Both the position numbers and the translations under genes were made by a program. Shown piece after piece: positions 8,389 through 50,255 of a stretch of DNA of 64,000 bases. The number at the start of each line of letters is the position of its first letter. Positions within the stretch are counted from its first letter, which is position 1. Under the pieces are notes generated by a model. It had not been told where the DNA came from. It searched no databases and saw only the letters and a program-made list of their open reading frames with translations. The stretch comes from Neobacillus sp. DY30. Its GTDB lineage: Bacteria > Bacillota > Bacilli > Bacillales > Cytobacillaceae. The DNA lies in assembly GCF_030123065.1 (NCBI RefSeq), contig NZ_CP126093.1, forward strand, positions 4,718,001 through 4,782,000, given 5' to 3'.

Positions 8389-8397
8389 GAGTGCCTC

Positions 8398-9231: not shown

Positions 9232-9243
9232 ATTCAGTACCTC

Positions 9244-10584: not shown

Positions 10585-10643
10585 TTTTTAGAACACCCCC
10601 AATAAGTAATACAAAAACTACTAATACATTATTAACTAGTCTG

Positions 10644-10677: not shown

Positions 10678-10816
10678 AAATGTGAACAGAATAAGAAAGA
10701 ATATGTTAGTATATATAGGAAAAAAGGTTAATTAAAAAAATAAATATATCATCATTATGTACAGTAACAAAAAAATAGACTAGATTCAAGTAAACCTTTC
10801 TGGAAGTGGTGTTAAA

Positions 10817-11305: not shown

Positions 11306-11330
11306 ACGTCAGGCGAAATTGCCTGACGTT
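11305..11330. terminator. bidirectional terminator between ysxD-like gene and ysxC
   Basis: AACGTCAGGC and GCCTGACGTT form a perfect 10-bp stem with a 6-base loop, with T-rich tracts on both strands, ending two convergent genes. Confidence 0.88.
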
Positions 11331-11335
11331 TCATT

Positions 11336-34362: not shown

Positions 34363-36945
34363 TTATAACGTATTTATTTTTATTTGCAGCGGTGAACGTC
34401 CTTCTTCATCAAAAATGATTAATTCATTTTCCTCTTTTAAGATACTTGCCGGTATTTTATATTCTTCTTGAGGTCCTATTTGCCAATATCGGCCTAAACA
34501 AAAACCATTCACCCAGAAAGTCCCTTTCGATAACCCATCTAGACGTATTTTCACTTTTACATCATCTGTAGATTGCAATGTTGTTGTAAAAGTGGTTTTA
34601 TACCAACATGGTTCCACCTTGTCATTACTTAATTGATTAATCCTTTGCCATTTTTTCGGTTCAGTTAAAAGAGCAGCGCTTTGCATTTTCCAATGATTAA
34701 TCTGATTTGCTTCCTTATATAAATAAAGCTTTAATTTCGAAATTCCTTTGAGCCCTTGCCCGTCAAATTCAAATTCATTAAAGCCATCATTTAAGAGATG
34801 ACCTATATCAGCCACGCCATATGGTGCATCGAAACGATTCCAAGCAGTTTCGTTCGATATGAGCATGACTGGCGCACCATCATTCAAGCGCAATCTTTGA
34901 AGTCCCTCTCCAACAAGGATGGCTTTATCGAAGCCTTGATCATTGACAAATTCCTTCATAAACGAAATTCTTCCCTCTATTTCCGGAATACTTCTTAATG
35001 AATGTGATTTACCGATTCCCTCCACTTTCCAGCCATTTAATAAGTCTACAACAATTCCATCAAGACTAGGTGACTCACTTATTCCCTTCGGTTCCCCCAA
35101 AGCTTGTGTGAAATTGTAACGACCCATATTTTGAACCAAGAAGCGGATGCTGTTATTGCCTTTTTCAACAGGAATCTCGATAGAAGCTGCCCCCAAATCA
35201 TTCACAAGTCCGATATATTGATTGTTAAGGAATACTCTTACTGGATCTTCAATCCTTGGGAAAATTAACGTTTTTTGACCGGTTTCGTTCGATTCAAACT
35301 GTGCCGTATACGATAAATACCCACTCCATTGTCCAAATGAACTAAAGTCCAGCGGTGTAACTGATTCCCTTCCTAAAGACTCATCGATTTTTTCTGAGGC
35401 CTGGTACCAATCTGTTAATGCAAATGTAACCTCCCCTTTATCAGCAAAGATTTTGTCATTCTCCTCCACCGTCTTTCGATCATTCACGACGATTTCAAAA
35501 CACTCATTCTTACCATCCATAATGGAAATAACCTGCGGTTTTGACCCATGAAATAATGTAAATTGCAATTTCCCACTGTCTAGCTTTTCGTAACGCTGCG
35601 GATAGGGGCAGGAAATCGAAAGTTCATCAACATCTTTTACTTGTAAAACTAGTGAGGATTTCTGCCCAGTTTCATGGTAAACAGTACCAATATTATTTGA
35701 AAAACCTGTTGAGTATGCAGTTAGTGCTGAAATCTTCACTGTTTTGCCCGCTAATCTTCCTGCTTTTATATTCTTTACGACAGGTAAAATTCCATCTGGC
35801 TCAATTGTAATACTAAGTTCATGTTGTTCCTCTGGGCTATAAAGTTTTTGAATTGCACGCTCCATTTTCGAATTAGCAAGAAACATTATACTTCCAGCTT
35901 TACTCTGTACTATTTTACATTGCAGCCCGTCAGGCAGTGCAGTACACTCATCACTATTCAAGGGATTTGTTAATATCGGTTCGACCCAATCAATAAAGCT
36001 ATGAACTCTTTTTATTGCCTGATACTTCGCTGTTTCCTGCAAGTACTCCGTTAGAGGTGCATCATAATCATAGGATGTAATCATAAATGTATGTTCACCG
36101 ATCGTACGGCCTCCCCAATGGTCAAAATTGGTACCACCGAAAAACATATAATAATTGATAGCTGTAAAACCTTCCCGCAGCAATTCATATAACGTTTTTT
36201 CTAACATACCTGCTGTCTTTTGGTTTGCTCTAGGCCCGCCCCATTGTTCAAACCAACCGACCCAAAATTCAAGAACTCCTTTTGGCTGACCTTCAAATCT
36301 TTCATCTAATATTTTTGCATGTTCCTCTGTATGAGACCAAAAGTTCCGAAACTCAACCGCACCTTCAACACCGCCATAACAAGTTACTAATGGAACATTT
36401 ATTCCTCTTGTAATGAGTCCGTCTCGTAAATATTCCATATACTTTTTATCAGGTTTTCCAAGTGCTTGAAACTCATTTTCAACTTGAACCATAATGACTG
36501 TACCTGCATTCGTGATCAAATGAGGAAGGATCCGCGGTACTAACTCGTCAAAATACCGATCTACATAGTGTAAAAATGGTTCATGATAACAGCGGTATTT
36601 CATGTTCTCCTTGGAACTCAGCCACCATGGCAGACCACCGAAATCCCATTCCGCACAAATGTATGGTCCTGGCCGCAGAATGACATACAAATTTCTTTCT
36701 TCACATTTCTTTAGGAAAGTTCCCAAATCTTTATCGTTTGCAAAATCCCATACACCTTCCGCCTCTTCATGCCAATTCCAAGGAATATAAGTTTCAATAC
36801 AATTACAGCCCGCTTTTTTTACTTTATCCAGCAGTTCATCCCACTCTGCACGAGGCAGGCGGAAATAGTGAACCGCTGCTGACTTGATGAAAACCCGATT
36901 CCCATCAATAATCCAGCTATTTTTATCAAATTGAATACTGGCCAT
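34363..36945 (-). CDS. GH35 beta-galactosidase
   Basis: 860 aa, no signal peptide, so probably cytoplasmic. The TIM-barrel carries the GH35 signature RPGPYICAEWDFGGLPWWL (91-109), acid/base E158 in VQVENEF and nucleophile E226 in LEFWVGWFEQWGG. Two jelly-roll domains typical of the family lie towards the C terminus (about 520-860, with GTFWVNGFCLGRYWQIGPQEEY near the end). It overlaps the upstream yesL-like gene by 20 bp and ends the operon. It would remove terminal beta-linked galactose, or possibly a related amino sugar, from imported oligosaccharides. The substrate is inferred only. Confidence 0.9.
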   Translation of the reverse strand: MASIQFDKNSWIIDGNRVFIKSAAVHYFRLPRAEWDELLDKVKKAGCNCIETYIPWNWHEEAEGVWDFANDKDLGTFLKKCEERNLYVILRPGPYICAEWDFGGLPWWLSSKENMKYRCYHEPFLHYVDRYFDELVPRILPHLITNAGTVIMVQVENEFQALGKPDKKYMEYLRDGLITRGINVPLVTCYGGVEGAVEFRNFWSHTEEHAKILDERFEGQPKGVLEFWVGWFEQWGGPRANQKTAGMLEKTLYELLREGFTAINYYMFFGGTNFDHWGGRTIGEHTFMITSYDYDAPLTEYLQETAKYQAIKRVHSFIDWVEPILTNPLNSDECTALPDGLQCKIVQSKAGSIMFLANSKMERAIQKLYSPEEQHELSITIEPDGILPVVKNIKAGRLAGKTVKISALTAYSTGFSNNIGTVYHETGQKSSLVLQVKDVDELSISCPYPQRYEKLDSGKLQFTLFHGSKPQVISIMDGKNECFEIVVNDRKTVEENDKIFADKGEVTFALTDWYQASEKIDESLGRESVTPLDFSSFGQWSGYLSYTAQFESNETGQKTLIFPRIEDPVRVFLNNQYIGLVNDLGAASIEIPVEKGNNSIRFLVQNMGRYNFTQALGEPKGISESPSLDGIVVDLLNGWKVEGIGKSHSLRSIPEIEGRISFMKEFVNDQGFDKAILVGEGLQRLRLNDGAPVMLISNETAWNRFDAPYGVADIGHLLNDGFNEFEFDGQGLKGISKLKLYLYKEANQINHWKMQSAALLTEPKKWQRINQLSNDKVEPCWYKTTFTTTLQSTDDVKVKIRLDGLSKGTFWVNGFCLGRYWQIGPQEEYKIPASILKEENELIIFDEEGRSPLQIKINTL

Positions 36946-37591
36946 ACTGGCTCTCCCCTCCTAATACCTTTTTTTGTTCTTCTACCTGAGCAAATACCTT
37001 CAAAGCTGTTTTGGTTACAATAAAACAATACAAGCTACCACTAAAGAAAAATATTGATCCAGGAAGCAGCAATAAGATGAATCCGATGACCACACCGGAA
37101 ATAAACATGATGACTGTATGGATTGGGTGTGTAAAAATTAATAAGAATGCTGTTTTTATATATTGAGTGAATGATAGGTCATAATGTACATAAAGTGGGA
37201 TGAAATATAGGACAACGGCTAAAGATACAAGCAGTAACCCGGCAGATAGAACTGACAGAAAGATAAATGGCCATCCATCTAAGGATTGAAATAATATAAG
37301 ATCCAGTAAAAAAACAGCAATACCAAGTAATAATAGGTATCCGTAGAGATTTGCTTTCACAAATTCTTCCTTATATTTCTTCCAAAACAAGCTAAAAATC
37401 GGTACATCTTCCTCTTCCATAATAAGCTTTCTCATGACGGCAAACATAGCAGCCGTTGCGGGCATGAGGCCCACTAAAAGTAAGCCGAGAAATGAAAATA
37501 TGATCCATAAAATGTTTGTATAAGCAATCAGCATGACTTTCTCTGAGACTCGATAAATCCCTGAAAGCATACCCTTCGTTTCCATCATCAT
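36926..37591 (-). CDS. YesL-like DUF624 membrane protein
   Basis: 221 aa with about five membrane helices and the DUF624 pattern (LLVGLMPATAAMFAVMRKLIMEEEDVPIFSLFWKKYKEEF). DUF624 proteins such as B. subtilis YesL are almost always next to YesMN two-component systems and CUT1 sugar ABC transporters, as here, but their function is not known. Three ATG codons in a row begin the gene, with AGAGGAGCG just before them, so the precise start is uncertain by two codons. Confidence 0.85.
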   Translation of the reverse strand: MMMETKGMLSGIYRVSEKVMLIAYTNILWIIFSFLGLLLVGLMPATAAMFAVMRKLIMEEEDVPIFSLFWKKYKEEFVKANLYGYLLLLGIAVFLLDLILFQSLDGWPFIFLSVLSAGLLLVSLAVVLYFIPLYVHYDLSFTQYIKTAFLLIFTHPIHTVIMFISGVVIGFILLLLPGSIFFFSGSLYCFIVTKTALKVFAQVEEQKKVLGGESQYGQYSI

Positions 37592-37698
37592 CGCTCCTCT
37601 TTTCAGCTAAATCTTTTATTGTATTATTTATGAGATTAGTACGAATGACGGTTTAACATATAAGGTAACTTTGGATCTTTACCATTGTAATCGTCTAA

Positions 37699-38820
37699 TT
37701 ACTCATACCAGTAACCTTTATGTTTTTTCTCTAAACGCATTAAAGCCTCCAGATAAAAGTAATCTCCCCAAATCATATAATCATCGATTGCAAGATTACC
37801 CCGAACATGATAGGAACCATGCTTTAGGAGACCTTCCGCATCTGCTTCATTAATCGTTGAATATTTTTCTACAAGTGATTTCATCATGCTTTGAATCGCC
37901 ACTTCAAAATATGCTCGGTCAGGATCGTCTTCCTTTAAATGACGGATTATTTCGAGAAGACCACACACAGCAATGGATGCTGCCGAACTATCACGAGGTG
38001 TATTTTCATTAATTGGCGCACAAAAGTCCCAATAGGGAACATAATCTTCTGGTAAATGTTCTATAAAATATTTCGCCATTCTTTTTGCTGTTTCTAAATA
38101 AGCTAACTTTTTTGTAGAGTGATAGGAAAGGGCAAATCCATAGATTCCCCAAGCCTGGCCACGTGTCCATGTCGACCCATTTGTATATCCTTGGTGGGTT
38201 GCTCCACCGATAGGCTCACCTGTTCCTTGGTTAAAGAAAAATGTATGATAAGAACTATCATCACCGCGAACAAGATAGCGCCTGCTTTTTTCCGCTTGAG
38301 CTTCAGCAACATCCAGATATTTAGGATCTCCTGTCTGTTCACTCGCCCAATAGAGAATCGGGAGATTAAGAAGACAATCAATAATGATTCTTCCGCCTTC
38401 TATTTCATCGTTTTTTAGCCCCCACGCCTGCAGATACTGACCTTTCTCACGCCAACGGCTAAGCAACTTCTCTGCAGCCTGCAAAGTTAGTTCTCTCGCT
38501 GACTCGTTTTTTTCAATCATCCATTGGGCTTTAGAAGAAAGCGAATACAAAAAACCGATGTCATGATGATTCAAAACAATATTTTTATTTAGGCGATTTT
38601 GAAAGCTATCGACTGTTTGTATAGCCTTTTCTTTAAAAACAGGATCCTTGGAATATTCGTAACAGAGCCATAATAAGCCTGACCAAAAACCATCGGTCCA
38701 GTCGTCATTATTGTTCAATTCATATTTACCATTCACGCTGACGTGCGGGAATAACTCACCGAAATGTTCAATATTCTTTCTTGTTTTTTTAACTGCATCT
38801 TCAATCGCTAATTTCCACAT
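37699..38820 (-). CDS. unsaturated glucuronyl hydrolase (GH88)
   Basis: 373 aa, no signal peptide. An alpha6/alpha6-barrel enzyme that hydrates and releases the 4,5-unsaturated uronate left by polysaccharide lyases. The two key aspartates known from the Bacillus sp. GL1 enzyme (Asp88 and Asp149, 377 aa) align with D87 in NHHDIGF and D148 in RIIIDCLLNLP. WTRGQAWGIYGF and the aromatic-rich C terminus also fit. First gene of the GH88-yesL-GH35 unit, with AGGAG nine bases before the ATG. A regulon motif copy lies 94 bp upstream. Confidence 0.92.
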   Translation of the reverse strand: MWKLAIEDAVKKTRKNIEHFGELFPHVSVNGKYELNNNDDWTDGFWSGLLWLCYEYSKDPVFKEKAIQTVDSFQNRLNKNIVLNHHDIGFLYSLSSKAQWMIEKNESARELTLQAAEKLLSRWREKGQYLQAWGLKNDEIEGGRIIIDCLLNLPILYWASEQTGDPKYLDVAEAQAEKSRRYLVRGDDSSYHTFFFNQGTGEPIGGATHQGYTNGSTWTRGQAWGIYGFALSYHSTKKLAYLETAKRMAKYFIEHLPEDYVPYWDFCAPINENTPRDSSAASIAVCGLLEIIRHLKEDDPDRAYFEVAIQSMMKSLVEKYSTINEADAEGLLKHGSYHVRGNLAIDDYMIWGDYFYLEALMRLEKKHKGYWYE

Positions 38821-38913
38821 GAAAACATTCTCCTAACCTCTCAGCCTTAATCTATTCCTAAACTATTTCTACTAGCCATGTATTTAGTCTAAAAGAAAAA
38901 GGACGAAGGAAAT

Positions 38914-38950
38914 ATGTCTGATTTACAGAAAAATGTGCACAATTTTTACC
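38914..38950. promoter_or_regulatory. candidate YesN-type operator, copy 1 (GH88/PL8 divergent region)
   Basis: GTGCACAATTTTTAC begins at 38935. A weaker partner (ATGTCTGATTTAC) begins 21 bp away at 38914, nearer GH88. Same orientation relative to the minus-strand gene as copies 2 and 3. A degenerate reverse copy, GGTAAAAATT (39021-39030), faces the lyase gene. Confidence 0.6.
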
Positions 38951-39094
38951 TTGAAATGTCATTAAGCTCTTACCAACATGTTTGGTGTTCTAAAGAATCT
39001 GTCAAAATTCTTCTCTTATGGGTAAAAATTTTCATCCACATGTTGCTAGATTAAGTACTAACATTAGTTATTAACCGGTTACTAGGAGGGGATC

Positions 39095-39178
39095 ATGAAA
39101 TTTTATTTTCTTTTAGTACCAAAGCTTTTTGCGAAGGAGGAAGATAAAAAAACTGGATGTTACATTGAAAAATGTTGA
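39095..39178 (+). CDS. possible 27-aa leader peptide upstream of the lyase
   Basis: ATG with a near-perfect ribosome binding site (AGGAGGGGATC) encodes MKFYFLLVPK...IEKC and stops 34 bases before the lyase start. The first ten residues are hydrophobic. It may be a real upstream ORF affecting lyase translation, or a relic of an earlier start. No family recognised. Confidence 0.35.
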   Translation: MKFYFLLVPKLFAKEEDKKTGCYIEKC

Positions 39179-39212
39179 GAGCAGCATTAATTTTTTTCGA
39201 GGAGAGGGAGTA

Positions 39213-42200
39213 ATGAGGAAAATATTAAATTTAGTATTGGTTATCTGTTTAATCGTACCATTATCTATACCACTTATTGAAAACGCTGCCATAGCAAACA
39301 GTGAAACATTTTCTAGTCTAGATTCCGATGTCAGCCTTGGCGAACTTTTAATAAATAATGAGTTTGACGACAGTGAAGATGCAGGGACGTTTGCTTATAT
39401 GTGGGAAAATGGACAAAAGCCAGTCAATTGGGATTTGCGTAATTGGACAAACTCAGGAGGAGCGAATCCGCAAGCAAAACTCATCCAAGACCAGGAAAAA
39501 AATATGGTTCAAATTGATCTAAATAAGACCGTAGGTTTTTTCCAATATTATAATTCCATCCCTGTAAATCCAAACAGTATTTATCATTTTAATGCAAAAG
39601 TCAAAACAAAGGATATTCAAACACCACATAGCTCGAAAAACGCAGTTACTCTTCGGGTAGAACAATTAAAAGATAGTACCGTTTTGGCAAGAAATGACCT
39701 TGCATTTATTAAAAATCACAGCGGGGAATCGGATTGGGTGAACTTATCCGGCTCCATCACGACACGGAGTGATACGAATCATGTCAGAGTGATTCTTATT
39801 ACGGGACAAGTATCAGCAGGTAATGGCTCAACAGGAACCATTTGGGTTGATTCTTTGAGCATGAAACCTGAAGTTGTTTCGCTCGAAAGTATTACCCTGG
39901 CCCCTGAATCTCTCGCCATTCCTAAGGGGGCTACTGCTGAATTAAGCTATACCCTTAATCCTAAGAATGCAACCTTCCAAGATCTTGAATGGTCCTCAAG
40001 TAATGAAGCGGTAGCAAGTGTGGAGAATGGAAAGGTTACTGGCCTTTCCGGTGGTGATGTTATAATTTCGGTTAGTTCCAAGAACGATCCAAGCATTAAT
40101 GCCACATCTACCGTTACAATCTTTGAGGGAGATATCCCTGTGAAAGGAATCTCTTTAAATCACAGTCAGGTTCGTTTAAATGAGGGAAAAGGGACAATTT
40201 TAACTCCAACCATATCACCCTCTTATGCAAGCAACCATCAGGTAGTCTGGAGTTCGTCAAATGAAAACATTGTAAAGGTCAATGGTGGAGTAATCCAGGC
40301 TTTGCAGCCGGGAAATGCAGTCATCACTGCAACAACAGTGGACGGAAACCATCAAGCCTTCACTGCTATTGTAGTAGATCAGTATGAAGAAGACGAATAC
40401 GATCAGATGAGAAAGAAATGGGCGAACTATATTATTCAGAATACCTATATTGATTTAGCTAACCCTCTGATAAAACAAAAAATTGACAAACTGTCAGAAG
40501 ACGCCAAAGTACTATGGGCGAACATGAATAAAAGTGCAGATAGGAAATACATCTGGGAGAATGCGTCCAGTAATACAAATTCTGCAGATGTAACAACCAG
40601 TTTTAGAAATTTAAAGACCTTAACAAGTGCCTATGCCACGGAAGGTTCCGAACTGCAAGGTAATCCGGACCTTTTAAAAGATATCATCAAGTCATTGGAT
40701 TGGATGGTCGAAAACCGTTATAACGGTAACCACTATAACAATTGGTGGGATTGGCAAATTGGTTCGCCACAACTTCTCAATGATATTACAGCCGTATTAT
40801 ATGAATATTTAAGCGATGAACAATTAGTCGAATATATGAATTCCATCAAAACTTATGTTCCAAGACCAACCCATTATTATGGAGTAGGCGGAGCAACCTG
40901 GATCGTCGAAGCAACAGGGGCAAATCTCGTTGATTTAACAAAGGTCGCAGCGGTTCAAGGGATTATTTCGAAAGAAAAAGCAAGAGTTATTTCCGGCCGG
41001 GATCATTTCCCCATGATTGAAATAAAAAAATCAGGGACGGGGAACGGGCTCTATTCCGATGGATCATTTGTCGATCATAGCAATATCGCCTATACAGGAA
41101 CATATGGTGTCGTATTGTTAGGATCTATGGTAGATATGATTTATTTGTTGGACAATAGTTCGTTCACATTAAATGAAGAAGATTTAAATAATATATACGA
41201 CATGATTTTGAATGCATTTCAACCGGTTATTTATCGCGGACTAATGATGGATATGGTAAATGGCCGTGCCATCTCAAGAGGTAATGTCCAAGATATCGGC
41301 CATGGCGTAGGGGCAATGGAGAGAATCATTCAGTATATGGAATTTGCACCGAAGGAGTATAAGTCAAAGTTTGAAAGCATGGTGAAATATTGGATATCTT
41401 CCAATGATTCCGTAAACATGATTGAACGCTTCAGTCGTATTCCTGTCATTACCATGGCAAATAAGATTATAAATGATTCTAGTATTCAGCCAAGAGGAGA
41501 ACTGATCGGCCACTATAACTTTGCGAATATGGACAGGGTCGTCCATAGAAGACCGGGATATGTTTTTGGAATTAGTATGTACTCTAACCGGATTGGTGCC
41601 TATGAAGGAAATATGAATGGTGAAAACACAAAAGGGTTTTATACTGGTTCAGGCATGACCTACTTATACAATAATGATTTACAGCAATATAGCGGTGATT
41701 TCTGGCCGACCGTTGATTCCTATCGTTTGCCAGGTACTACGGTTGATGCAACAAAACAACTGCCAGTAGGCGCAGGTACAGGAAAGACTTCCCCTCAATC
41801 CTGGGTTGGCGGCAGTACAATCGAAGGGCTATATGGAACAAATGGAATGTTCCTAGATCAAAGTATTTACGGAGTGACCTTAAAAGGGAAAAAATCATGG
41901 TTTATGTTCGATAATGAAATCATTGCACTTGGATCGGGTATTCAGAGTAATGACGGACGTCCAATTGAAACGATTGTCGAAAATAGAAAGTTACTAGACA
42001 GTGGAAATAATGCACTGTATGTAGATCATCAAAAAATGTCATCTAACCTTGGCTGGACGGAAGAAAAAATAGGCGTTAACTGGTCACATTTAAGTGGAAA
42101 TGCAAAAGGAAGCGATATTGGTTATTACTTCCCAGAAAAAACTGAAGTAAAATTCCAAAGAGAAGCTCGAACCGGCTCTTGGAAAGACATTAATACAACT

Positions 42201-42710
42201 GGCTCCGAACAATTGATCACAAGAAACTATATGAAAATGAGCATCAATCACGGGGTAAATCCTAGTAATGGAAGCTACTCCTACGTAATACTGCCAAACA
42301 AATCAAAAGAAGAGACAGCGAAATACTCAGAGAATCCAGACATTAAGATTTTAGCTAATAATGAAAAAGTTCAGGCTGTAAAAGAAAAGAAATTAAATAT
42401 CATGGGTGTTAACTTTTGGGAAAATGAAAAAATAACCATTGATAAACTTACTAGCTATCAGAAAGCATCAGTCATGTTCAAGGAAATACCAGGTAAAATG
42501 ATTGAAATAGCGGTAAGTGACCCTACTCATAAGCAGGATTTCATCGAGATAGAATTAGATTATAATATTAAGTCTTCTATCTTTGTAGACCCTAGAATTC
42601 AAATACAGAAAATCAGTCCAGCTAAAACCAAGCTGCTGATTGATGTTAAAGGGGCAATGGGTCAAAGTATAACAGCAGAGTTCAGCCTAAATAATAAACC
42701 TTTGGACTGA
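39213..42710 (+). CDS. secreted polysaccharide lyase family 8 protein
   Basis: 1,165 aa. A signal peptide (MRKILNLVLVICLIVPLSIP, probable cleavage after AIA near residue 28) is followed by a carbohydrate-binding-like beta domain (about 35-215), two BIG2 Ig-like domains (about 220-305 and 310-390) and the PL8 lyase toroid plus beta-sandwich (about 400-1165). Catalytic residues of PL8 are N571 (ATGANLVD), H622 (DGSFVDHSNIAYTG) and Y631, with the aromatic patch NWWDWQIGSP and an NGRAISR arginine. PL8 members cut hyaluronan, chondroitin or xanthan. I cannot tell which from sequence alone. Start chosen at the ATG with GAGGAGAGGGAG. No LPxTG or SLH anchor. Confidence 0.9.
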   Translation: MRKILNLVLVICLIVPLSIPLIENAAIANSETFSSLDSDVSLGELLINNEFDDSEDAGTFAYMWENGQKPVNWDLRNWTNSGGANPQAKLIQDQEKNMVQIDLNKTVGFFQYYNSIPVNPNSIYHFNAKVKTKDIQTPHSSKNAVTLRVEQLKDSTVLARNDLAFIKNHSGESDWVNLSGSITTRSDTNHVRVILITGQVSAGNGSTGTIWVDSLSMKPEVVSLESITLAPESLAIPKGATAELSYTLNPKNATFQDLEWSSSNEAVASVENGKVTGLSGGDVIISVSSKNDPSINATSTVTIFEGDIPVKGISLNHSQVRLNEGKGTILTPTISPSYASNHQVVWSSSNENIVKVNGGVIQALQPGNAVITATTVDGNHQAFTAIVVDQYEEDEYDQMRKKWANYIIQNTYIDLANPLIKQKIDKLSEDAKVLWANMNKSADRKYIWENASSNTNSADVTTSFRNLKTLTSAYATEGSELQGNPDLLKDIIKSLDWMVENRYNGNHYNNWWDWQIGSPQLLNDITAVLYEYLSDEQLVEYMNSIKTYVPRPTHYYGVGGATWIVEATGANLVDLTKVAAVQGIISKEKARVISGRDHFPMIEIKKSGTGNGLYSDGSFVDHSNIAYTGTYGVVLLGSMVDMIYLLDNSSFTLNEEDLNNIYDMILNAFQPVIYRGLMMDMVNGRAISRGNVQDIGHGVGAMERIIQYMEFAPKEYKSKFESMVKYWISSNDSVNMIERFSRIPVITMANKIINDSSIQPRGELIGHYNFANMDRVVHRRPGYVFGISMYSNRIGAYEGNMNGENTKGFYTGSGMTYLYNNDLQQYSGDFWPTVDSYRLPGTTVDATKQLPVGAGTGKTSPQSWVGGSTIEGLYGTNGMFLDQSIYGVTLKGKKSWFMFDNEIIALGSGIQSNDGRPIETIVENRKLLDSGNNALYVDHQKMSSNLGWTEEKIGVNWSHLSGNAKGSDIGYYFPEKTEVKFQREARTGSWKDINTTGSEQLITRNYMKMSINHGVNPSNGSYSYVILPNKSKEETAKYSENPDIKILANNEKVQAVKEKKLNIMGVNFWENEKITIDKLTSYQKASVMFKEIPGKMIEIAVSDPTHKQDFIEIELDYNIKSSIFVDPRIQIQKISPAKTKLLIDVKGAMGQSITAEFSLNNKPLD

Positions 42711-42789
42711 TAAGCTACAAGATGAGGCACCTCTCATAAATTTTACTTAACACCCGCAAGCATATTCCACTTGGTTAATCCTGGCAGAA

Positions 42790-42825
42790 AAAACAGGCAA
42801 CTTCCTAAAGGGAGTTGCCTGTTTT
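42790..42825. terminator. bidirectional terminator between the lyase and yesN-like genes
   Basis: AAAACAGGCAACTTCC and GGAGTTGCCTGTTTT pair with one bulged T. T runs lie on both strands. It ends two convergent genes. Confidence 0.85.
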
Positions 42826-42831
42826 AATATA

Positions 42832-44418
42832 TTAATAATGTATCCTTGCCCGATATTCCCTCGGTGTCATCTTCGTATACTTTTTAAATACTTTTGAAAA
42901 GTAGGTTCGATCTGAATAGCCGCATTTTAAGGCAACCTCTTCTACTGATTCTCCTGTTTGTTCAAGTATTTTTACGGCGACACCGATTTTAAAACGATGA
43001 ACATAATCGGTAAAGTTTTCGCCCGTCAATCGTTTAAAATAACGGGAGAAGTAACTTGGATTTAAATATAAATGAGCAGCCATATCTGTAGAGGTAACAT
43101 TTTTAGAGAGATTCTGAACGATGTACTCATCAATCTCCTGTAACTTTGGCTCTCTAGCGCTGGCTCCGTCCAATTTTCCATTCAAATGAATAAGCTGTGT
43201 AAGCTTGTTTTCTACAAGATTTACTACATCACTTAGTCTAGAGCATTCCTCAAGAAACGAATAAAACTCTTCATTTCCGGATTCAATATATTGTAATTCA
43301 ATTAATCGGATTCTCCGTGCTAAAACCTTCTTCAATTCTTCAGGATCAAAATTCTTTTCCGTTGAGGTTTGGGTGATAACTTTTATTATCTCTTTTACTT
43401 TTTTACTGTCTTTTTCTTTTACAGCGATAACTAGTTCACCCATCTCTTTGTCTAGAAGACGACTGATCGGGCAAAAAGCGCTTTGTTTCGTCTCCTTATC
43501 CCAAATCAAAATCGGTACAGTATTATAAAAAAATCGATAGCGATTGTGAATCATCGGTTTGAAAACAAAACCAACATTTTTTATATCATACGATTGACGG
43601 CCATAGATAAAAGAAATCTCCAGACCTAACAATTCAATTATTTTCTGCTGTATCTCCAATAATAAAGATTGAAGGTACTGATGATGATCAAATTTTATAT
43701 TTTGACGATAATTATAAACAAAAACAATCGATTCTTCCTCATTAAAAAATGTCATACCATGATATTTTTTCGCGATATCACTAGCGATATTATAAAATCC
43801 GTATTTAATTACGGACAGATCTTGATAGGAATACTTTTCCATAAACGTTGATATTGATAAGTGGCCTGTTCCTATAATAAACGAGGGATATTGCCAACTA
43901 ATATCAAGTTTTTTTGCAAACTGGATTAGCATTTCCGGCTCATCTCTTTTTATAAGACGGTCGAATAACGAATGTTTCAGTATTTCAATGTTCCGGTTGA
44001 GTATCTCCTTATAGGATAAATCTTCTACACTAACAGACGTTTCTATCATTTTATTAATCGAATTCTTCAAGCTTTCTTCAAGCTGCTCTTTCGTTAACTC
44101 ATCCTTAATCAAGTAACTATCGGCATTTAGCTGAATGGCTTTTTGTGCATAATGGAAATCCTCATGGCAGGTTAAAAAAATCATTCTAACATCTGGTTTG
44201 ATTTGTTTAAGTTCCGCAGCAAGTTCAAGACCATTCATTTGTGGTAATCCAATATCTGAAATCACCAAATCAGGTTTATACTGTTTAAACATCTCCAAGG
44301 CTTTTACACTTGAAAAGGATGTACCTACTACGTTTAAACCATGTTCCTCCCAATTGATTAGTTGTTGAAGATATTTAATCATTGGTACATCATCATCAAC
44401 CAGCATAATATTAATCAT
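42832..44418 (-). CDS. YesN-type response regulator (REC + AraC HTH)
   Basis: 528 aa. The receiver domain (about 1-120) has acidic pocket VDDD and phospho-acceptor D55 in VISDIGLPQMNG. A long linker of about 300 residues precedes the C-terminal AraC/XylS DNA-binding domain (about 425-525: NVTSTDMAAHLYLNPSYFSRYFKRLTGENF...VALKCGYSDRTYFSKVFKKYTKMTPREYR). The start codon directly abuts the kinase stop codon, so they are coupled. It probably activates the locus by binding the GTGCAC motif pairs. Confidence 0.92.
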   Translation of the reverse strand: MINIMLVDDDVPMIKYLQQLINWEEHGLNVVGTSFSSVKALEMFKQYKPDLVISDIGLPQMNGLELAAELKQIKPDVRMIFLTCHEDFHYAQKAIQLNADSYLIKDELTKEQLEESLKNSINKMIETSVSVEDLSYKEILNRNIEILKHSLFDRLIKRDEPEMLIQFAKKLDISWQYPSFIIGTGHLSISTFMEKYSYQDLSVIKYGFYNIASDIAKKYHGMTFFNEEESIVFVYNYRQNIKFDHHQYLQSLLLEIQQKIIELLGLEISFIYGRQSYDIKNVGFVFKPMIHNRYRFFYNTVPILIWDKETKQSAFCPISRLLDKEMGELVIAVKEKDSKKVKEIIKVITQTSTEKNFDPEELKKVLARRIRLIELQYIESGNEEFYSFLEECSRLSDVVNLVENKLTQLIHLNGKLDGASAREPKLQEIDEYIVQNLSKNVTSTDMAAHLYLNPSYFSRYFKRLTGENFTDYVHRFKIGVAVKILEQTGESVEEVALKCGYSDRTYFSKVFKKYTKMTPREYRARIHY

Positions 44419-46143
44419 CTATTTTTCACCTTCCTTACCTGTTCCAAACGGAATTTGAATAACAATCGATATACCGCCCTTTTCATTTTGCTGAAGTTCA
44501 ATATCTGTATTGGAACCATAATAAAGCTTTAGTCTCTTAGCAATATTCATTAACCCTACTCGATTATAAGATGTTTCTTCAGCGTCAATCTTTAACATTC
44601 GGTTTAACTCTATAAGTTGAAGTTCACTCATCCCTTTTCCATTATCACTTATCATTATAGAAATCGATTGATCCACTTTTTTGGCTCGGATGGTTATTTC
44701 TCCAGCTGTTTTTTCAGAAAATCCATGAACAATGGCATTTTCTATAAAAGGTTGAAGTAATAATTTCGGTAAGCTACTACCTTTCACTTGATCCTCCACT
44801 TCAACTTTCAATTCTACATTCACTTCTGTTCTCATCCTCATGATTTCTATATAATAAAATAACAGTTTGCATTCACTTTCAATTGTAGATGGTTCATCTA
44901 TTTTCATATAAGCTCTTAATAAACTCATTAAGGCGTTTATTTTTTCAGCATGCTCATTATCATTATTTATAAATAAACTGCATTTGATAGAATTTAAGGT
45001 ATTAATCAAAAAATGCGGCCGTATTTGAGCGAATAATGCTTGAAGTTCTATGGTCCTTTTTTCTTCTTGTTCTTTTTCAATCTTTTCAATTAACCCTTTT
45101 ATTTCATCTAACATATGATTAATGGTATTACCCAATTCGTTGATTTCATCTCTGCCATCAGGGATGTACCGGACATCGTGTTTTCCTTGACCAAACTGAG
45201 TAGCAACAAAAGACAGTCTCTGAATAGGACGATTAAGTCTTCTAGCAATTAATAGTGAAATGAACAAAAAGATAAAAAAGAAAACAGCAATTAAAATTGA
45301 ACTTAGTAAAAAGTTTTTGGTAATTTGTCCTGTTACTTCTTCATCCGAGGTCTCATGGATGAGCTTCCATTTTGATATCGGAATGTGAATTTCGTCACGA
45401 ATTTCTCCGCTTCTCGATTCTCCGCCTTGATAAGATATTGCAGGGTCCCCTTCAATCAACTTTCCATTCTCATCAAATAATGCAAGTTTACCAGTCTTGG
45501 CCGATTGAAATAATCGTTTAAAATATCCATTCGAGATGCCTATATTTAACGTCGCTAAAGGTGCACCATTTTGGGGATCTTTTATAACACGACTAAAGTA
45601 GTAATAAGAGTCTGCATCTTCATTCATATAATTAACCGAACCCAATGATTGTAAATGACTGGTCTGATTAACATCAATACGGTCTTGCAACCGATTCCAA
45701 TGTTCTTTCAAAACTGTTAAAGACGCGATTTTACCAGAGATACCATCTGAGTAAGGAACGATAAACTCTTTATTATTAACTAAAAACATATGAATATCCG
45801 AATTTAACATTTTAATGGATATATAGTCAAAGGAAGTGACAACCTTCTGATAGTTATCATAGTCCCGATACCTCTCTATTTTCTCGGTATCGCTAAAATC
45901 ACTAAGATTTCGAATGGTTTCATCGTTTTTCACATAAAAATGAGTAACATAATTTAAATCATCGACTATTTTTGTGATATCTTTGGAGACTAAATTCAAT
46001 ACAGAACGATTGGATAGTTCAATTTTTTCTATTACATTATCCTTTGTTGTTTTATAAGACAATACTGCAATTACCAATACTGGGAGCAAGATTAATATAA
46101 TAAATGATGACTGTATTTTTTGATAATAGCTTAATTTGTTCAT
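44419..46143 (-). CDS. YesM-type sensor histidine kinase
   Basis: 574 aa membrane kinase of the LytS/YesM class. Helix TM1 (about 11-31), an extracellular sensor domain (about 35-275), TM2 (about 280-305) and HAMP (about 305-360) are followed by the His_kinase domain. The phosphorylated histidine is H377 in QIRPHFLINTLNSIK, and the ATPase N and G boxes are PFIENAIVHG and ISDNGKGMS. It likely senses an oligosaccharide or a binding protein. AGGA precedes the ATG; a cre-like site lies just upstream. Confidence 0.92.
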   Translation of the reverse strand: MNKLSYYQKIQSSFIILILLPVLVIAVLSYKTTKDNVIEKIELSNRSVLNLVSKDITKIVDDLNYVTHFYVKNDETIRNLSDFSDTEKIERYRDYDNYQKVVTSFDYISIKMLNSDIHMFLVNNKEFIVPYSDGISGKIASLTVLKEHWNRLQDRIDVNQTSHLQSLGSVNYMNEDADSYYYFSRVIKDPQNGAPLATLNIGISNGYFKRLFQSAKTGKLALFDENGKLIEGDPAISYQGGESRSGEIRDEIHIPISKWKLIHETSDEEVTGQITKNFLLSSILIAVFFFIFLFISLLIARRLNRPIQRLSFVATQFGQGKHDVRYIPDGRDEINELGNTINHMLDEIKGLIEKIEKEQEEKRTIELQALFAQIRPHFLINTLNSIKCSLFINNDNEHAEKINALMSLLRAYMKIDEPSTIESECKLLFYYIEIMRMRTEVNVELKVEVEDQVKGSSLPKLLLQPFIENAIVHGFSEKTAGEITIRAKKVDQSISIMISDNGKGMSELQLIELNRMLKIDAEETSYNRVGLMNIAKRLKLYYGSNTDIELQQNEKGGISIVIQIPFGTGKEGEK

Positions 46144-46164
46144 ATCATTCCTGCCACCCTTTTT

Positions 46165-46180
46165 TAGATTGCGTTTTCAA
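46165..46180 (-). promoter_or_regulatory. candidate cre (CcpA) site upstream of the yesM-like gene
   Basis: Minus-strand TTGAAAACGCAATCTA fits WTGNAARCGNWWWCAW at 15 of 16 positions. It lies 21 bases before the kinase start, where CcpA would block elongation. Confidence 0.6.
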
Positions 46181-46268
46181 CGATTACAATTATTATTTTA
46201 CTACAAAGATCGTTATAAATTTCATACAGACATTATTAACTTCAAAATCTAGTTTTTTAGATGGAACA

Positions 46269-46294
46269 AAAGACCCCTCAGCTGAGGCGTCTTT
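46269..46294 (-). terminator. terminator after the binding-protein gene
   Basis: AAAGAC-c-CCTCAG and CTGAGG-c-GTCTTT form a stem with one mismatch, followed on the minus strand by TTTTG. Confidence 0.7.
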
Positions 46295-46304
46295 ATAAAT
46301 AGTT

Positions 46305-47645
46305 TTATTTTTCGTTTTCTTTTATTACTTTATTTGCTTCATCAGCCATCCACTTTTGAACTTCTTTTGCCGATTTATCTTCAAGGATGAACTGGCTAAA
46401 TCCATCGCCTAAAATTTTATCTAATTCTGCAGCATATGTGATGGAAACATCAGATGCTGGTAAAGCCTCCGTACTGTCGAATAAAGTAGACATTAGTGAT
46501 GCTACATCATAATATTCTTCTTTATCTGCAATCCATTTTTCAACTAATGGTTTTGCATCTCCTTTTTTCCAACCTGGTAACTCTGTTCTTGCGTCCGTTA
46601 AGTTAGTAGAAATAAAGCGGGCAAATTTAAATGCAGCTTCTTTATTTTTAGAACTTTCACCAATTGCTAAATAATTACCGCCCATGAAAATTTCGTTTTT
46701 ATCACCTTTTGACTGAACTGGTACTGGTGCAAAAGCGGTTTTGAATTCATGCGGAAACTGTTGAGTATTACCGGTATCTGCAATCATCCATGTACCAGTT
46801 AGAAGCATGGCTGCGTCGCCATTAAAATATTCGGTCCGGTAGTTTAATTTCGCTCCGATAACATCCGCGTAAGGTTTAATAGATTTATCCGTTTTCTCCA
46901 TTTGACGTCTTAAGTTAAAGAAATATTCATAGGAAGGATCAGTGAAATTGGTTTTACCATCTTCGGTCATAAATGGATGCTTAAGGTGGACTTGAGCAAT
47001 TGGATTCGCATATAATCCCCAATTATGGAAGTATGCCCCATATTGTTTTTCAGTGCCTTCACCCTTTGTTAATTTTTTAGCATATTCACTAAATTCATCC
47101 CATGTCCAACCTGCTTTAGGGACGTCAAGGCCCGCTTCATCTAAAGCTTTCTTATTAAGTAGGACAAAATTGGTAGAAATATTGTTTAAAATTCCATAAT
47201 ACTTTCCTTTATACTTAGGATTAACATAATATTCTTCTTCTGGATTTAACTTATTTTCTTTATATAGGTCATCAAGTGGTGCAACTACACCTTGCGCCGC
47301 TCGTTGGTAAATCGCATCAATGTGTGGAGTCATAAAGACATCAATTGATTCACCTGACGCCATTAGTACATCTAGCTTTTTTAGCGTTTCAAGAGAATTC
47401 CCTGGGACAAGTGAAACATGTTCCACATCAATATTGGGGTTTTCTTTTTCAAACTGTTCAATATATTTGTCCGTTGACGCCTGCATTAACTCATTATCCC
47501 AGTTGTAATACTTAATGGTTACTTTTTCGTCTTTGTTTTTTTCTCCCGTACTTGAACTTGACTCTGAACTGCCTGAACATGCCGATAGAGACATTGCTAG
47601 AAATGCGGTACTTAAAGCTAAAGTGGCTTTCTTTTTTAATCTCAT
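46305..47645 (-). CDS. CUT1 ABC transporter sugar-binding lipoprotein
   Basis: 446 aa extracellular solute-binding protein of the UgpB/MalE type. The lipoprotein signal ends MSLSAC with lipidated Cys23, followed by a Ser-rich linker. The fold signature KYYNWDNELMQASTDKYIEQFEKENPNIDVEHV and GKYYGILNNISTN are characteristic. It should capture oligosaccharides released by the lyase and deliver them to the two permeases encoded upstream. No ATPase gene is present; such importers often share the MsmX-type ATPase. It has its own promoter with an operator pair and cre-like site. Confidence 0.92.
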   Translation of the reverse strand: MRLKKKATLALSTAFLAMSLSACSGSSESSSSTGEKNKDEKVTIKYYNWDNELMQASTDKYIEQFEKENPNIDVEHVSLVPGNSLETLKKLDVLMASGESIDVFMTPHIDAIYQRAAQGVVAPLDDLYKENKLNPEEEYYVNPKYKGKYYGILNNISTNFVLLNKKALDEAGLDVPKAGWTWDEFSEYAKKLTKGEGTEKQYGAYFHNWGLYANPIAQVHLKHPFMTEDGKTNFTDPSYEYFFNLRRQMEKTDKSIKPYADVIGAKLNYRTEYFNGDAAMLLTGTWMIADTGNTQQFPHEFKTAFAPVPVQSKGDKNEIFMGGNYLAIGESSKNKEAAFKFARFISTNLTDARTELPGWKKGDAKPLVEKWIADKEEYYDVASLMSTLFDSTEALPASDVSITYAAELDKILGDGFSQFILEDKSAKEVQKWMADEANKVIKENEK

Positions 47646-47665
47646 TTGGATCCCCCTCTTTTATA

Positions 47666-47681
47666 ATTAAACCGTTTACAT
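47666..47681 (-). promoter_or_regulatory. candidate cre (CcpA) site upstream of the binding-protein gene
   Basis: Minus-strand ATGTAAACGGTTTAAT fits WTGNAARCGNWWWCAW with one mismatch. It overlaps the predicted transcription start, just downstream of the -10 TATAAT at 47687-47692. Confidence 0.65.
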
Positions 47682-47686
47682 TTCAA

Positions 47687-47692
47687 ATTATA
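47687..47692 (-). promoter_or_regulatory. -10 box of the binding-protein promoter
   Basis: TATAAT on the minus strand. No good -35 stands at the right spacing; the nearest operator repeat abuts that position, as expected of an activator-dependent promoter. Confidence 0.55.
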
Positions 47693-47714
47693 CTTCCTGC
47701 TCTTTTTACTTTAC

Positions 47715-47750
47715 GTGCACAATTTGATACAGTTTGTGCACTTTTTTTAC
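47715..47750. promoter_or_regulatory. candidate YesN-type operator, copy 2 (binding-protein gene)
   Basis: Two GTGCAC units start 21 bp apart (47715 and 47736), and 14 of 21 positions agree between units. The distal unit is GTGCACTTTTTTTAC. The site begins 70 bp upstream of the start codon. Confidence 0.7.
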
Positions 47751-47768
47751 TAGTTTCATTCTCACTTC

Positions 47769-48602
47769 TTAACCTTTTACACCGCCAAGAGCAATCCCTT
47801 TAATCACTTGCTTTTGCATAATGATAAAGATAATAACAAGTGGAACAATAGCAGATAATGAAGCCATCATCAGAACCGCAAAGTTATCCGCATAGTCGTC
47901 CTTAAATAATTGCAGTCCTAGAGTAATAGGATAAAGTTCTTTATTAATTAAGAAAATAAGTGGACCCTGATAGTCATTCCAAATCCAAATAAACTTAATA
48001 ATACCTGCTGTTGCTAAAATTGGCTTACATAACGGCATTATTAATTTCCAATAAATCGTAAAGTATCCTGCACCATCTAATTTTGCTGCTTCAATATATT
48101 CATTAGAAATTCCGAGCATGTATTGCCTCATTAAAAAGGTAAAGTAGATTGAGAATAACCCCATCAAGATTAGACCTTCATGTGTATTATAAAGTCCAAG
48201 CCATTTTATCAAAAGAAACCTTGGTACCAATGTCGCTTGTTCCGGTATAATCATGAAACTAAGAACAAGTGCAAAAACGAAATCCCTGCCTTTAAACTGT
48301 AGCTTACTAAAGGCAAACGCAGCCATGGAAGAAAAAATTAGTGTCGACAATGTTTGTATGGCAGCTAGTTTTATAGAGTTAAAATAAAACTTATAAAAAG
48401 GAATTTCAGCCATCCAAACTGCTTTAAAGTTTTCAACAAGATTCCAATCTTTCGGAATCCACTGAATAGGAAATACCATTACATCTTTTTCAAATTTAAA
48501 TGCTGCCGACATCATCCAAATTAATGGAACGAGGAAAAAGAATGATAATACTAACATACCAATTGTGAATAAGATCTTACTAAAATCAAGCTTTTTTTTC
48601 AT
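47769..48602 (-). CDS. CUT1 ABC transporter permease (MalG/UgpE type)
   Basis: 277 aa inner-membrane permease with about six membrane segments. The cytoplasmic EAA loop is EYIEAAKLDGAGYFTIYWKLIMPLCKP, the ATPase contact. The frame is open ten codons further, but the ATG at 48602 has AAGGGGAA upstream and leaves a 16-bp gap after the first permease. Partners: the upstream permease and the binding lipoprotein. Confidence 0.92.
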   Translation of the reverse strand: MKKKLDFSKILFTIGMLVLSFFFLVPLIWMMSAAFKFEKDVMVFPIQWIPKDWNLVENFKAVWMAEIPFYKFYFNSIKLAAIQTLSTLIFSSMAAFAFSKLQFKGRDFVFALVLSFMIIPEQATLVPRFLLIKWLGLYNTHEGLILMGLFSIYFTFLMRQYMLGISNEYIEAAKLDGAGYFTIYWKLIMPLCKPILATAGIIKFIWIWNDYQGPLIFLINKELYPITLGLQLFKDDYADNFAVLMMASLSAIVPLVIIFIIMQKQVIKGIALGGVKG

Positions 48603-48618
48603 TTTAATTCCCCTTCCA

Positions 48619-49563
48619 TCAATAATGTACAAATCGTTTTTGCAGTTTCCAGCTAATTAATGTAATCATTCCTACTATTATAAACAGTAACCATGAAATC
48701 GCAGATGCATATCCCATATTGAATTGTTGAAAACCTTCTTCATAGATACGGAAAACGATTACGGTTGAAGAGTTATTTGGCCCACCTTGGGTTAAGAAGG
48801 CAATTAAATCAAATACCTTAAACGAACCAATCAATAATGTGATAAATAAAAAGACATTTGTTGGTCCAAGCAATGGAAGTGTAATTTTAAAGAATTGCTG
48901 CAGTTGTGAGGCGCCATCGATACTAGCAGCTTCATATAATTCTTCAGGAATACTTGATAATGAAGAAAGGTAGATAATGATTTGATAACCAATTCCCGCC
49001 CAAATCGTAATAATGATAATTGAAATTAAAGAAGTCTTCGGACTTGCTAACCACATTGGTGGATTCTCGATCCCTAATCCAGCTAAAAATTGGTTAATAG
49101 GGCCAAGGGACGGATGGAATAGTGCACTCCATACAGCACCAATTGCAATAATCGATGAAATATAAGGAATAAAAAACGCAATTTTAAAGTAACTTGACAT
49201 GTAGACTTTTGTATGAATAATGACGGCTAATATAATCGCAAGAAACATTCCAATCGGAACAGTGAAAATGGTGAATAAAAAATTATTTTTTAATGCCATA
49301 ATAACTTTTTCATCTTGAAATAATTTTAGGAAATTATCAAATCCAGCAAAGTGTATTGATGACAAGCCTCCAACTAAATTCCATTCAGAAAAGCTGAGAA
49401 CAAGTGAAAATATAAGTGGAAATAAATATAGTAACAAAATTCCAATAATTTCTGGTAATAGGAACAGCCACCCAAATAAACCTTCTCTTCTCCGGTCTGT
49501 CCAAAATATTTTTTTGTGTACATTATTTACAGGTACACCCGTTTCGATGACTTTATTTTCCAC
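48619..49563 (-). CDS. CUT1 ABC transporter permease (MalF/UgpA type)
   Basis: 314 aa inner-membrane permease with about six membrane segments (LFGWLFLLPEIIGILLLYLFPLIFS first). EAA loop is EELYEAASIDGASQLQQFFKITLPLLGP. First gene of the transport unit; the second permease follows after 16 bp. Its promoter region carries operator copy 3. Confidence 0.92.
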   Translation of the reverse strand: MENKVIETGVPVNNVHKKIFWTDRRREGLFGWLFLLPEIIGILLLYLFPLIFSLVLSFSEWNLVGGLSSIHFAGFDNFLKLFQDEKVIMALKNNFLFTIFTVPIGMFLAIILAVIIHTKVYMSSYFKIAFFIPYISSIIAIGAVWSALFHPSLGPINQFLAGLGIENPPMWLASPKTSLISIIIITIWAGIGYQIIIYLSSLSSIPEELYEAASIDGASQLQQFFKITLPLLGPTNVFLFITLLIGSFKVFDLIAFLTQGGPNNSSTVIVFRIYEEGFQQFNMGYASAISWLLFIIVGMITLISWKLQKRFVHY

Positions 49564-49621
49564 TAATGGTACCTCCTTTTATTTTATATTTACACTTTAA
49601 TAGATAGGCGTCCTTTGACTG

Positions 49622-49659
49622 ATACACGATTCTGACTATAATGTGCACTATTTTTACTT
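49622..49659. promoter_or_regulatory. candidate YesN-type operator, copy 3 (permease genes)
   Basis: GTGCACTATTTTTAC starts at 49643 and its partner ATACACGATTCTGAC at 49622, exactly 21 bp away. The two agree at 11 of the first 16 positions. The site begins 59 bp before the permease start codon, in the same orientation as copies 1 and 2. Confidence 0.7.
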
Positions 49660-49691
49660 ATCTTCTTCACTCAGCCAAAATTTTAGCATGA

Positions 49692-49744
49692 CATAAAAAA
49701 AACCAGGTATAAGACACTGATAAAAAGTGTCTTATACCTGGTTT
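49692..49744 (-). terminator. trxA terminator
   Basis: A 19-bp perfect stem (arms 49700-49718 and 49726-49744, core CAGGTATAAGACAC), followed on the minus strand by a run of T. It marks the end of the backbone gene trxA and the edge of the inserted locus. Confidence 0.92.
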
Positions 49745-49776
49745 ATAGTTACTTGGAGATCCCTAGTAAAATAAGC

Positions 49777-50091
49777 TTATACGTGCTTTTCTAATACACC
49801 TGCTAAAGCGTCTTTTGGCTGAAAGCCGACTACTTTGTCAACTACTTCGCCGTTTTTGAAAACAAGTAATGTAGGGATACTCATAACGCCGTATTTAGCA
49901 GCAGTTTCTTGGTTATCGTCTACATCTAATTTAACGATTTTCACTTTGTCGCCCATTTCTGAATCAAGTTCTTCAAGAACTGGAGCGATCATTTTACAAG
50001 GTCCACACCATGGAGCCCAGAAATCTGCAAGAACTAGACCAGAGCCTGTTTCAGCAGAGAAATTTGCATCTGTTACGTTTGAAATAGCCAT
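49777..50091 (-). CDS. trxA: thioredoxin
   Basis: 104 aa dithiol oxidoreductase. Redox centre WCGPC with C29 and C32, followed by the cis-Pro region MSIPTLLVF. It maintains cytoplasmic thiols and supplies ribonucleotide reductase. Length as in B. subtilis. AGGAGG precedes the ATG. Confidence 0.97.
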
Positions 50092-50130
50092 TTGTTTATG
50101 CCTCCTAAATAATTACTAATTTCTATCGAA

Positions 50131-50160
50131 AGTATAGCATTGTTTAAACCATCATGCTAA
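50131..50160 (-). promoter_or_regulatory. candidate trxA promoter
   Basis: Minus-strand TTAGCA (50160-50155), 18 bp, TATACT (50136-50131), about 40 bp before trxA. Confidence 0.5.
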
Positions 50161-50225
50161 TAATCTGTCTCGGATGTAATATACCCTAAAATACTTTTTG
50201 TATTCTCACTAATTATATGTAATAA

Positions 50226-50249
50226 GGCGAACAGTTTTCACTGCTCGCC
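50226..50249 (-). terminator. terminator of the fad/etf unit after etfA
   Basis: GGCGAACAGT and ACTGCTCGCC pair with one mismatch around TTTC, just after the etfA stop. Confidence 0.72.
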
Positions 50250-50255
50250 ATGATA

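Follow-up and report, generated by a model that had tools for sequence, protein, structure and literature searches.

Within a 64,000-nucleotide stretch of the 6.14-Mb genome of Neobacillus sp. DY30 (contig NZ_CP126093.1, positions 4,718,001 to 4,782,000; hereafter the window), a polysaccharide-utilisation cluster comprises, by Pfam and NCBIfam assignment, a PL8 lyase, a GH88 hydrolase, a DUF624 membrane protein, a GH35 glycosidase, a sugar-binding protein, two permeases, a YesM-type kinase and a YesN-type response regulator. Three minus-strand units of the cluster are preceded by a 36-bp element made of two units in tandem, and a probable fourth element precedes the PL8 gene. From sequence comparison, we consider it very likely that this element is the operator of the adjacent YesN, through which the regulator would activate uptake and breakdown of a uronic-acid polysaccharide.

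The PL8 lyase, the GH88 unsaturated glucuronyl hydrolase and an importer are all present, which is the gene set of a hyaluronan or chondroitin utilisation cluster. The substrate is probably a lyase-degraded uronic-acid polysaccharide of this kind, hyaluronan or chondroitin; the PL8 protein scores 584 bits with the NCBIfam HylB model (cut-off 1350) and likewise falls below the cut-off of the chondroitinase-AC model, and the PL8 family includes other specificities besides these two. Its start was taken as the ATG at 39213, in an open reading frame (ORF) that opens at 39129. YesN combines a receiver domain, whose aspartate region reads LVISDIGLPQ, with a C-terminal AraC-type helix-turn-helix (HTH). 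The binding protein and the two permeases adjoin yesMN, an arrangement that fits a YesMN-type system beside a sugar ATP-binding cassette (ABC) transporter.

The 15-mer GTGCACWWTTTTTAC occurs exactly on the plus strand at 38935, 47736 and 49643, reading GTAAAAAWWGTGCAC toward the minus-strand genes, and these copies lie upstream of the GH88, binding-protein and permease units, as the original prediction had it. At all three sites a weaker second unit is found exactly 21 bp nearer the gene, again as claimed (CTGTAAATCAGACAT before GH88, TATCAAATTGTGCAC before the binding protein and GTCAGAATCGTGTAT before the permease). The gene-proximal end of the element differs in coordinate from the start codon by 94, 70 and 59 bp, respectively, in keeping with the 59-94 bp given before. 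No copy of the 15-mer with up to three substitutions occurs upstream of yesM in the window or in five orthologous loci (L042-L046), which agrees with the claim that the kinase gene lacks one. The regulon had been put at three copies; these three stand, and the probable fourth element before PL8 had gone unlisted. The overall layout is a 15-bp unit, 6 bp, a weaker unit, about 22 bp and a -10 hexamer, with no evident -35 box (Table 1). Units in the same orientation about 21 bp apart, as in AraC-type operators, are present at the three sites and more weakly at the PL8 element.

Table 1. Predicted regulatory features and genes of the cluster, in window coordinates.
Feature	Position	Strand	Details
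Predicted two-unit operator before GH88	38914..38949	-	GTAAAAATTGTGCAC-N6-CTGTAAATCAGACAT; 33.7 bits; in 5/5 orthologous loci
Predicted two-unit operator before solute-binding protein	47715..47750	-	GTAAAAAAAGTGCAC-N6-TATCAAATTGTGCAC; 34.6 bits; between permease stop codon and binding-protein gene
Predicted two-unit operator before permease pair	49622..49657	-	GTAAAAATAGTGCAC-N6-GTCAGAATCGTGTAT; 35.4 bits
Probable fourth two-unit operator, before PL8 lyase	39001..39036	+	GTCAAAATTCTTCTC-TTATGG-GTAAAAATTTTCATC; spotted by eye
Proposed -10 TAGACT, GH88 promoter	38886..38891	-	22 bp after unit 2
Proposed -10 TAACAT, PL8 promoter	39059..39064	+	22 bp after unit 2; ties with a hexamer at 10 bp
Proposed -10 TATAAT, binding-protein promoter	47687..47692	-	22 bp after unit 2
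Proposed -10 TAAAGT, permease promoter	49594..49599	-	22 bp after unit 2
cre-like site ATGTAAACGGTTTAA, binding-protein promoter	47667..47681	-	just after the -10; 1 mismatch to CcpA consensus
YesN-type response regulator, proposed ligand	42832..44418	-	receiver and AraC-type HTH; PF00072, PF12833, PF00165
YesM-type sensor kinase	44419..46143	-	HAMP, His_kinase (PF06580), HATPase_c; no operator copy upstream
Solute-binding protein, sugar ABC transporter	46305..47645	-	PF01547
ABC sugar permease (second)	47769..48632	-	PF00528
ABC sugar permease (first)	48619..49563	-	PF00528; NCBIfam UgpA-like below cut-off
PL8 lyase with Big_2 repeats, hyaluronate-lyase-like	39213..42710	+	PF08124, PF02278, PF02884
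GH88-family unsaturated glucuronyl hydrolase	37699..38820	-	PF07470
DUF624 membrane protein, downstream of GH88	36926..37591	-	PF04854
GH35 glycosidase, last gene of GH88 unit	34363..36945	-	PF01301

Of 193 genomes of the family, nine yielded a YesN that reached the cut-off; in six of the nine, counting the genome of the window, this YesN is at least 72% identical, and across the close loci, YesN identity ranges from 72 to 89%. Three of the five named records with a close YesN are Neobacillus. The three sites are kept in every one of the five orthologous loci (15/15, or 18/18 counting the window), with a 1-bp deletion in unit 1 in L044 and a 1-bp insertion before unit 2 in L046. In L044-L046, the GH88 site persists though the DNA upstream of GH88 is unrelated.

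The element recurs at lower regulator identity. In L047 and L048, where YesN is 37-40% identical and the gene order is rearranged, it stands before GH88, DUF624, the binding protein and yesN, with up to two mismatches. With the DNA-binding domain as query against 398 genomes of the class, five more loci came up (L131-L135), all in one other family. Of these, L131-L133 (YesN 39-40%) carry GTCAAAATNNTGCAC in front of GH88 and of the permease, and in front of the binding protein they have a two-unit element of related sequence. At 7416 in L131, the match before the binding protein is unit 2, with unit 1 lying 22 bp before it and a TATAAT 21 bp after it. Unit spacing is 22 bp, not 21, in a few relatives (L046 and L131-L133). 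In L049-L051, whose YesN proteins are 27-29% identical, there are no matches of the element with up to one mismatch. The motif search at YesMN loci of related strains that had been called for thus returned the element in all orthologous loci and again at 34-40% YesN identity.

We summarized the element as a profile, R1, built from alignment A1 of 18 sites from six genomes. Two genomes absent from this profile, G156 and G105, have their top three and top two R1 matches, respectively, at their own YesN locus, and the binding-protein sites of L047 and L048 score much lower (E-values 0.4 and 3.9). Across 14 genomes, the pattern GTMAAAATNNTGCAC, which was drawn after inspection of these loci, matches exactly 39 times, compared with 6 times for the reversed pattern. 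The YesN locus accounts for 23 of the 39, and one genome, G843, has no exact match. Six of the 16 matches off the YesN locus are the word GTAAAAATACTGCAC, which lies inside an ORF in the window's genome. Markov controls gave 0-0.1 matches per 20 kb, as against 3-4 in five of the seven distant loci that share the element and 1 in the other two. Between GH88 and DUF624, L047 also carries two divergent copies of the 15-mer (6258-6294), the one at 6272 on the minus strand exact to the degenerate pattern and the one at 6280 on the plus strand with one mismatch, an arrangement absent from the window.

The presence of the element is accompanied by a signature in the DNA-binding domain of the regulator. 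Sharers of the element have the HTH2 sequence G[YF]SDR[TA]YFSK[VI]FKKY, mostly in the form GYSDRTYFSK[VI]FKKY and as GFSDRAYFSKVFKKY in L134 and L135, while the non-sharers L049-L051 have GYDNQSYFIKIFKNY or GYDNQSYFIKLFKTH, that is, GYDNQSYFIK[IL]FK. Identity of this domain to that of the window is 52-93% among sharers and 43-45% among non-sharers. The co-occurrence of site and regulator holds across genomes, except for weak single matches in seven genomes without the YesN clade. The element tracks one YesN clade and its target genes, a link that is correlative, and the predicted local regulon with YesN as its ligand is supported in that the element follows both regulator and targets and is by far strongest at this locus. 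We lean slightly toward a broader proposal, that a YesN clade spanning at least two families keeps the code GT[AC]AAAATNNTGCAC-N6-weak unit-N22-(-10), set by HTH2, despite regulator identities of 34-40%. If true, such a code would make the operators and regulons of unstudied YesN proteins readable from two helices.

The element, its geometry and its conservation are direct observations, as are its genome-wide specificity and its co-occurrence with the YesN clade, and they could be accommodated by another regulator encoded elsewhere in the genome, of AraC type or of LacI/GntR type, with YesN controlling something else. The genome may hold many AraC-type proteins (of 101 first-look YesN candidates, one reached the cut-off), no copy stands before the kinase gene, and YesN binding is a prediction, made with no systematic search of the loci for other shared regulator genes. 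However, strong sites occur only beside the YesN clade and its genes, including before yesN itself in L047 and L048, and a 21-bp direct repeat at the -35 position is the AraC layout rather than the palindrome expected of LacI/GntR proteins. We therefore regard a different regulator as unlikely.

The position of the element relative to the promoter bears on how it would act. The proposed -10 hexamers were assigned with ties broken toward 22 bp; in a wider shuffle test, which shares ties and has no such preference, the best hexamer falls 21-23 bp after unit 2 at 19.0 of 24 close sites (shuffle mean 2.4, largest 7.9 in 2000 shuffles) and at 8.8 of 22 held-out sites (shuffle mean 2.2, largest 7.5), the latter count having taken the L131 match at 7416 as unit 1. 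A 17-bp spacer would put the start of the -35 hexamer at the last base of unit 2, and at none of the four promoters does this hexamer resemble TTGACA. A generic sigma-70 scan returned 50 promoter-like matches, a number equalled in shuffled sequence; the four proposed promoters are not among them, as expected if an activator is needed. With its fixed -10 spacing and lack of a recognizable -35 box, the element has the layout of an AraC-type activator site, with the inner unit at the -35 position of promoters whose start points are predicted; the original prediction of such a layout next to weak -35 boxes is borne out. That the element is instead a repressor site or a transcript-leader signal appears very improbable. 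Operators of sugar genes often repress, and the elements lie 58-93 bp from three start codons, but each is set a constant distance ahead of its proposed -10 and neither overlaps nor follows it; a search of 37000-50300 against Rfam gave no family match, and the sigma-70 result argues in the same direction.

Genome-wide, specificity was assessed by pattern searches and by a profile search. All three exact matches of GTGCACWWTTTTTAC in the genome are at this locus, and the six one-mismatch copies elsewhere all lie inside ORFs of at least 70 codons. Looser searches for the 15-mer have no power: with up to three mismatches the window has 15 matches and shuffles have 10.7 on average, which is no enrichment, and with up to two there are 79 matches in the genome against 113 for the reversed control, so that discrimination resides in the exact form and the two-unit profile only. 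R1 scores the three sites at 33.7-35.4 bits and its next best match in the genome, inside an ORF, at 17.5 bits. Since the three window sites are in the training set, this gap is partly built in and the held-out genomes are the fair test; likewise, the motif was chosen with hindsight, so that its proper test is whether other genomes conserve it, and they do. Frequent occurrence elsewhere in the genome, which had been named as fatal to the prediction, was thus looked for and not seen. Chance likeness of A/T-rich stretches combined with recent common descent of the loci, suggested by the unenriched mismatched 15-mer and the 72-89% YesN identity of close loci, is hardly credible given the persistence of the element where regulator identity is down to 34-40% and gene orders are rearranged, a next genomic match of half the score, the near-empty Markov controls and the contradiction by held-out genomes.

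Judged by the layout of its upstream element, PL8 is a probable fourth target. The sequence of this element is kept in L042 and L043, and a two-unit element of like layout precedes PL8 in all five orthologous loci, followed 21-22 bp on by a -10-like hexamer in all six genomes. With the ungapped matrix, the element ranks 6, 13, 4, 5 and 7 in L042-L046, respectively, of about 36000-40000 places each; in L044 it stands directly after the three trained sites. A different PL8 lyase lies between GH88 and yesN in L044 (5754-8678), L045 (10761-14408) and L046 (about 10508-13543); this protein is 42-44% identical and in opposite orientation, yet has the two-unit element upstream. In L043, the N. niacini locus, PL8 appears as two ORFs (6994-9684 and 9712-10548), so the gene may be interrupted there.

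Several observations weigh against YesN acting through this element in the way proposed. Independence is lacking among the 24 close sites, which were drawn from six related genomes, and unit 2 is weak and variable. At the permease promoter the top-scoring hexamer in the wider range is at 35 bp, not 22; the permease sites of L131-L133 have their -10 at 25 bp; in L047 the yesN site agrees poorly with the -10 spacing, and the DUF624 sites of L047 and L048 do not agree with it. L134 and L135, with YesN 34-35% identical, keep a weaker match with the -10 at about 24 bp. The PL8 element is missed by R1 in all six genomes (the window and L042-L046) and, with an ungapped matrix from R1's alignment, comes 33rd among 127930 places in the window; it strays far from the other three, which is why the profile does not list it. 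Doubt over PL8 leaves our confidence in YesN as the ligand unaffected, because that confidence rests on the other sites. Finally, 14 of 61 genomes of the genus have an R1 match at an E-value of at most 0.02, and seven of these carry the YesN clade or a distant form of it; the other seven (G107, G108, G123, G124, G127, G141 and G160) have one match each, at 18.1-20.1 bits, which overlaps the score range of held-out true sites. These seven weak matches are indistinguishable from chance. Sequence and ORFs were listed around three of them (G108, G124 and G127); by eye, the G127 match has a partial second unit.

With YesN as the ligand, we infer a chain of binding, phosphorylation, activation, inducer and substrate from the protein families and the promoter geometry. 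YesM would sense an extracellular breakdown product of the uronic-acid polysaccharide and phosphorylate YesN, two molecules of which would bind side by side and in the same orientation on the 21-bp direct repeat. The pair would be anchored at the strong upstream unit (GTAAAAATAGTGCAC), and the second molecule would fill the weaker unit, which lies 21 bp further downstream. With about 22 bp between the end of unit 2 and the -10, this inner YesN would sit on the -35 position and could contact RNA polymerase in place of a -35 box. The promoters that would certainly answer are those of the permease pair, the binding protein and GH88-DUF624-GH35, with PL8 probably a fourth. A separate site lies between the second permease and the binding-protein gene, so this protein could be made in excess from a promoter inside the transport cluster. 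The yesMN genes, with no operator, would probably be expressed at a constant basal level; since they have no site in the six close loci and yesN has one in L047 and L048, autoregulation appears to vary.

A second layer of control may act on the binding protein. A site resembling the catabolite-responsive element (cre), identified by comparison with the general CcpA consensus, is present in 6/6 binding-protein promoters (the window and L042-L046) and suggests glucose repression via CcpA; lying over the predicted start point, it would add CcpA repression to activation by YesN. A weaker cre-like site, with two mismatches, follows the PL8 promoter of the window.

Terminator-like hairpins on the minus strand at 49700-49744, after the thioredoxin gene trxA, and at 46273-46288, between the binding-protein gene and yesM, would separate the transcripts of the regulon from trxA and from yesMN. 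In L043 (12398-14185), L044 (2554-4404), L045 (15778-17799) and L046 (14974-17139), GH88 and DUF624 have a heparinase II/III-like gene (PF16889, PF07940) between them, and L042 has an ORF of at least 698 aa in the same place. In the window, the GH88-DUF624 gap (37592-37698) is 107 bp, so the heparinase-like gene appears to have been lost or never gained there.

As a candidate operator, the element is sharply defined and conserved. It has three firm target promoters plus one that is probable, its geometry is explicit, and a signature in the recognition helix of the regulator goes with it. Direct tests of binding, of dependence on phosphorylation and of the inducer thereby become feasible, and there is a basis from which to begin reading YesN regulons in sequence data.

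Bacillales and Clostridia harbour many YesMN systems, of which, to our knowledge, few have a defined DNA site. RhgR is the YesN of B. subtilis. At araI1-araI2, AraC activates a promoter whose -35 box is poor, from two direct half-sites spaced 21 bp, of which the inner lies at the -35 region; the operator described here likewise has direct half-sites with 21-bp spacing and the inner unit at the proposed -35 position. AraC, however, is a one-component arabinose sensor that acts with DNA looping, whereas here the switch would be phosphorylation; no distal third site as in AraC looping turned up, though no dedicated search was made. The E. coli sites are named araI1-araI2 in the available part of PMC6018408.

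A literature search of partial coverage found neither this operator nor any YesN operator described for loci of hyaluronan, chondroitin or PL8. In their available text, PMC11034029 reports no clear repeat motif for pneumococcal YesN, and PMC10766802 and PMC5430744 give no operator. XydS/XydR of Clostridium cellulolyticum resembles the present system in that an AraC-type response regulator binds upstream of polysaccharide-degradation genes and its own genes are not under XydR, as proposed here for yesMN; the accessible portion of that report defines no consensus site and maps binding to stretches of about 246 and 272 bp (PMC3572039). For AraC-type two-component regulators of Caldicellulosiruptor (AviRS, BxgRS, MosSQ and others), the portion of PMC8579813 at hand describes widely spaced tandem repeats that lie upstream of promoter elements; in three of five such systems it interprets them as activator sites. 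Like this locus, they pair a sensor kinase and an AraC-type regulator beside a sugar ABC transporter; they differ in organism, substrate and gene set, and the likeness is one of described layout, not of site sequence. For the AraC-family rhamnose regulators of Bacillales, Bacteroides and Enterococcus, the available text of PMC3870299 describes direct repeats with 21-bp periodicity. RhaR and RhgR of Bacillales differ from the present case in sugar and regulator and are compared here by repeat layout, not motif; RhgR is nonetheless alike in controlling genes for rhamnogalacturonan, also a lyase-dependent uronic-acid polymer (PMC3870299). The operator had been believed undescribed; as far as the available text of these sources goes, the 21-bp tandem layout is already published for AraC-family sugar regulators (PMC3870299, PMC8579813), so it is the sequence and the regulon that look new.

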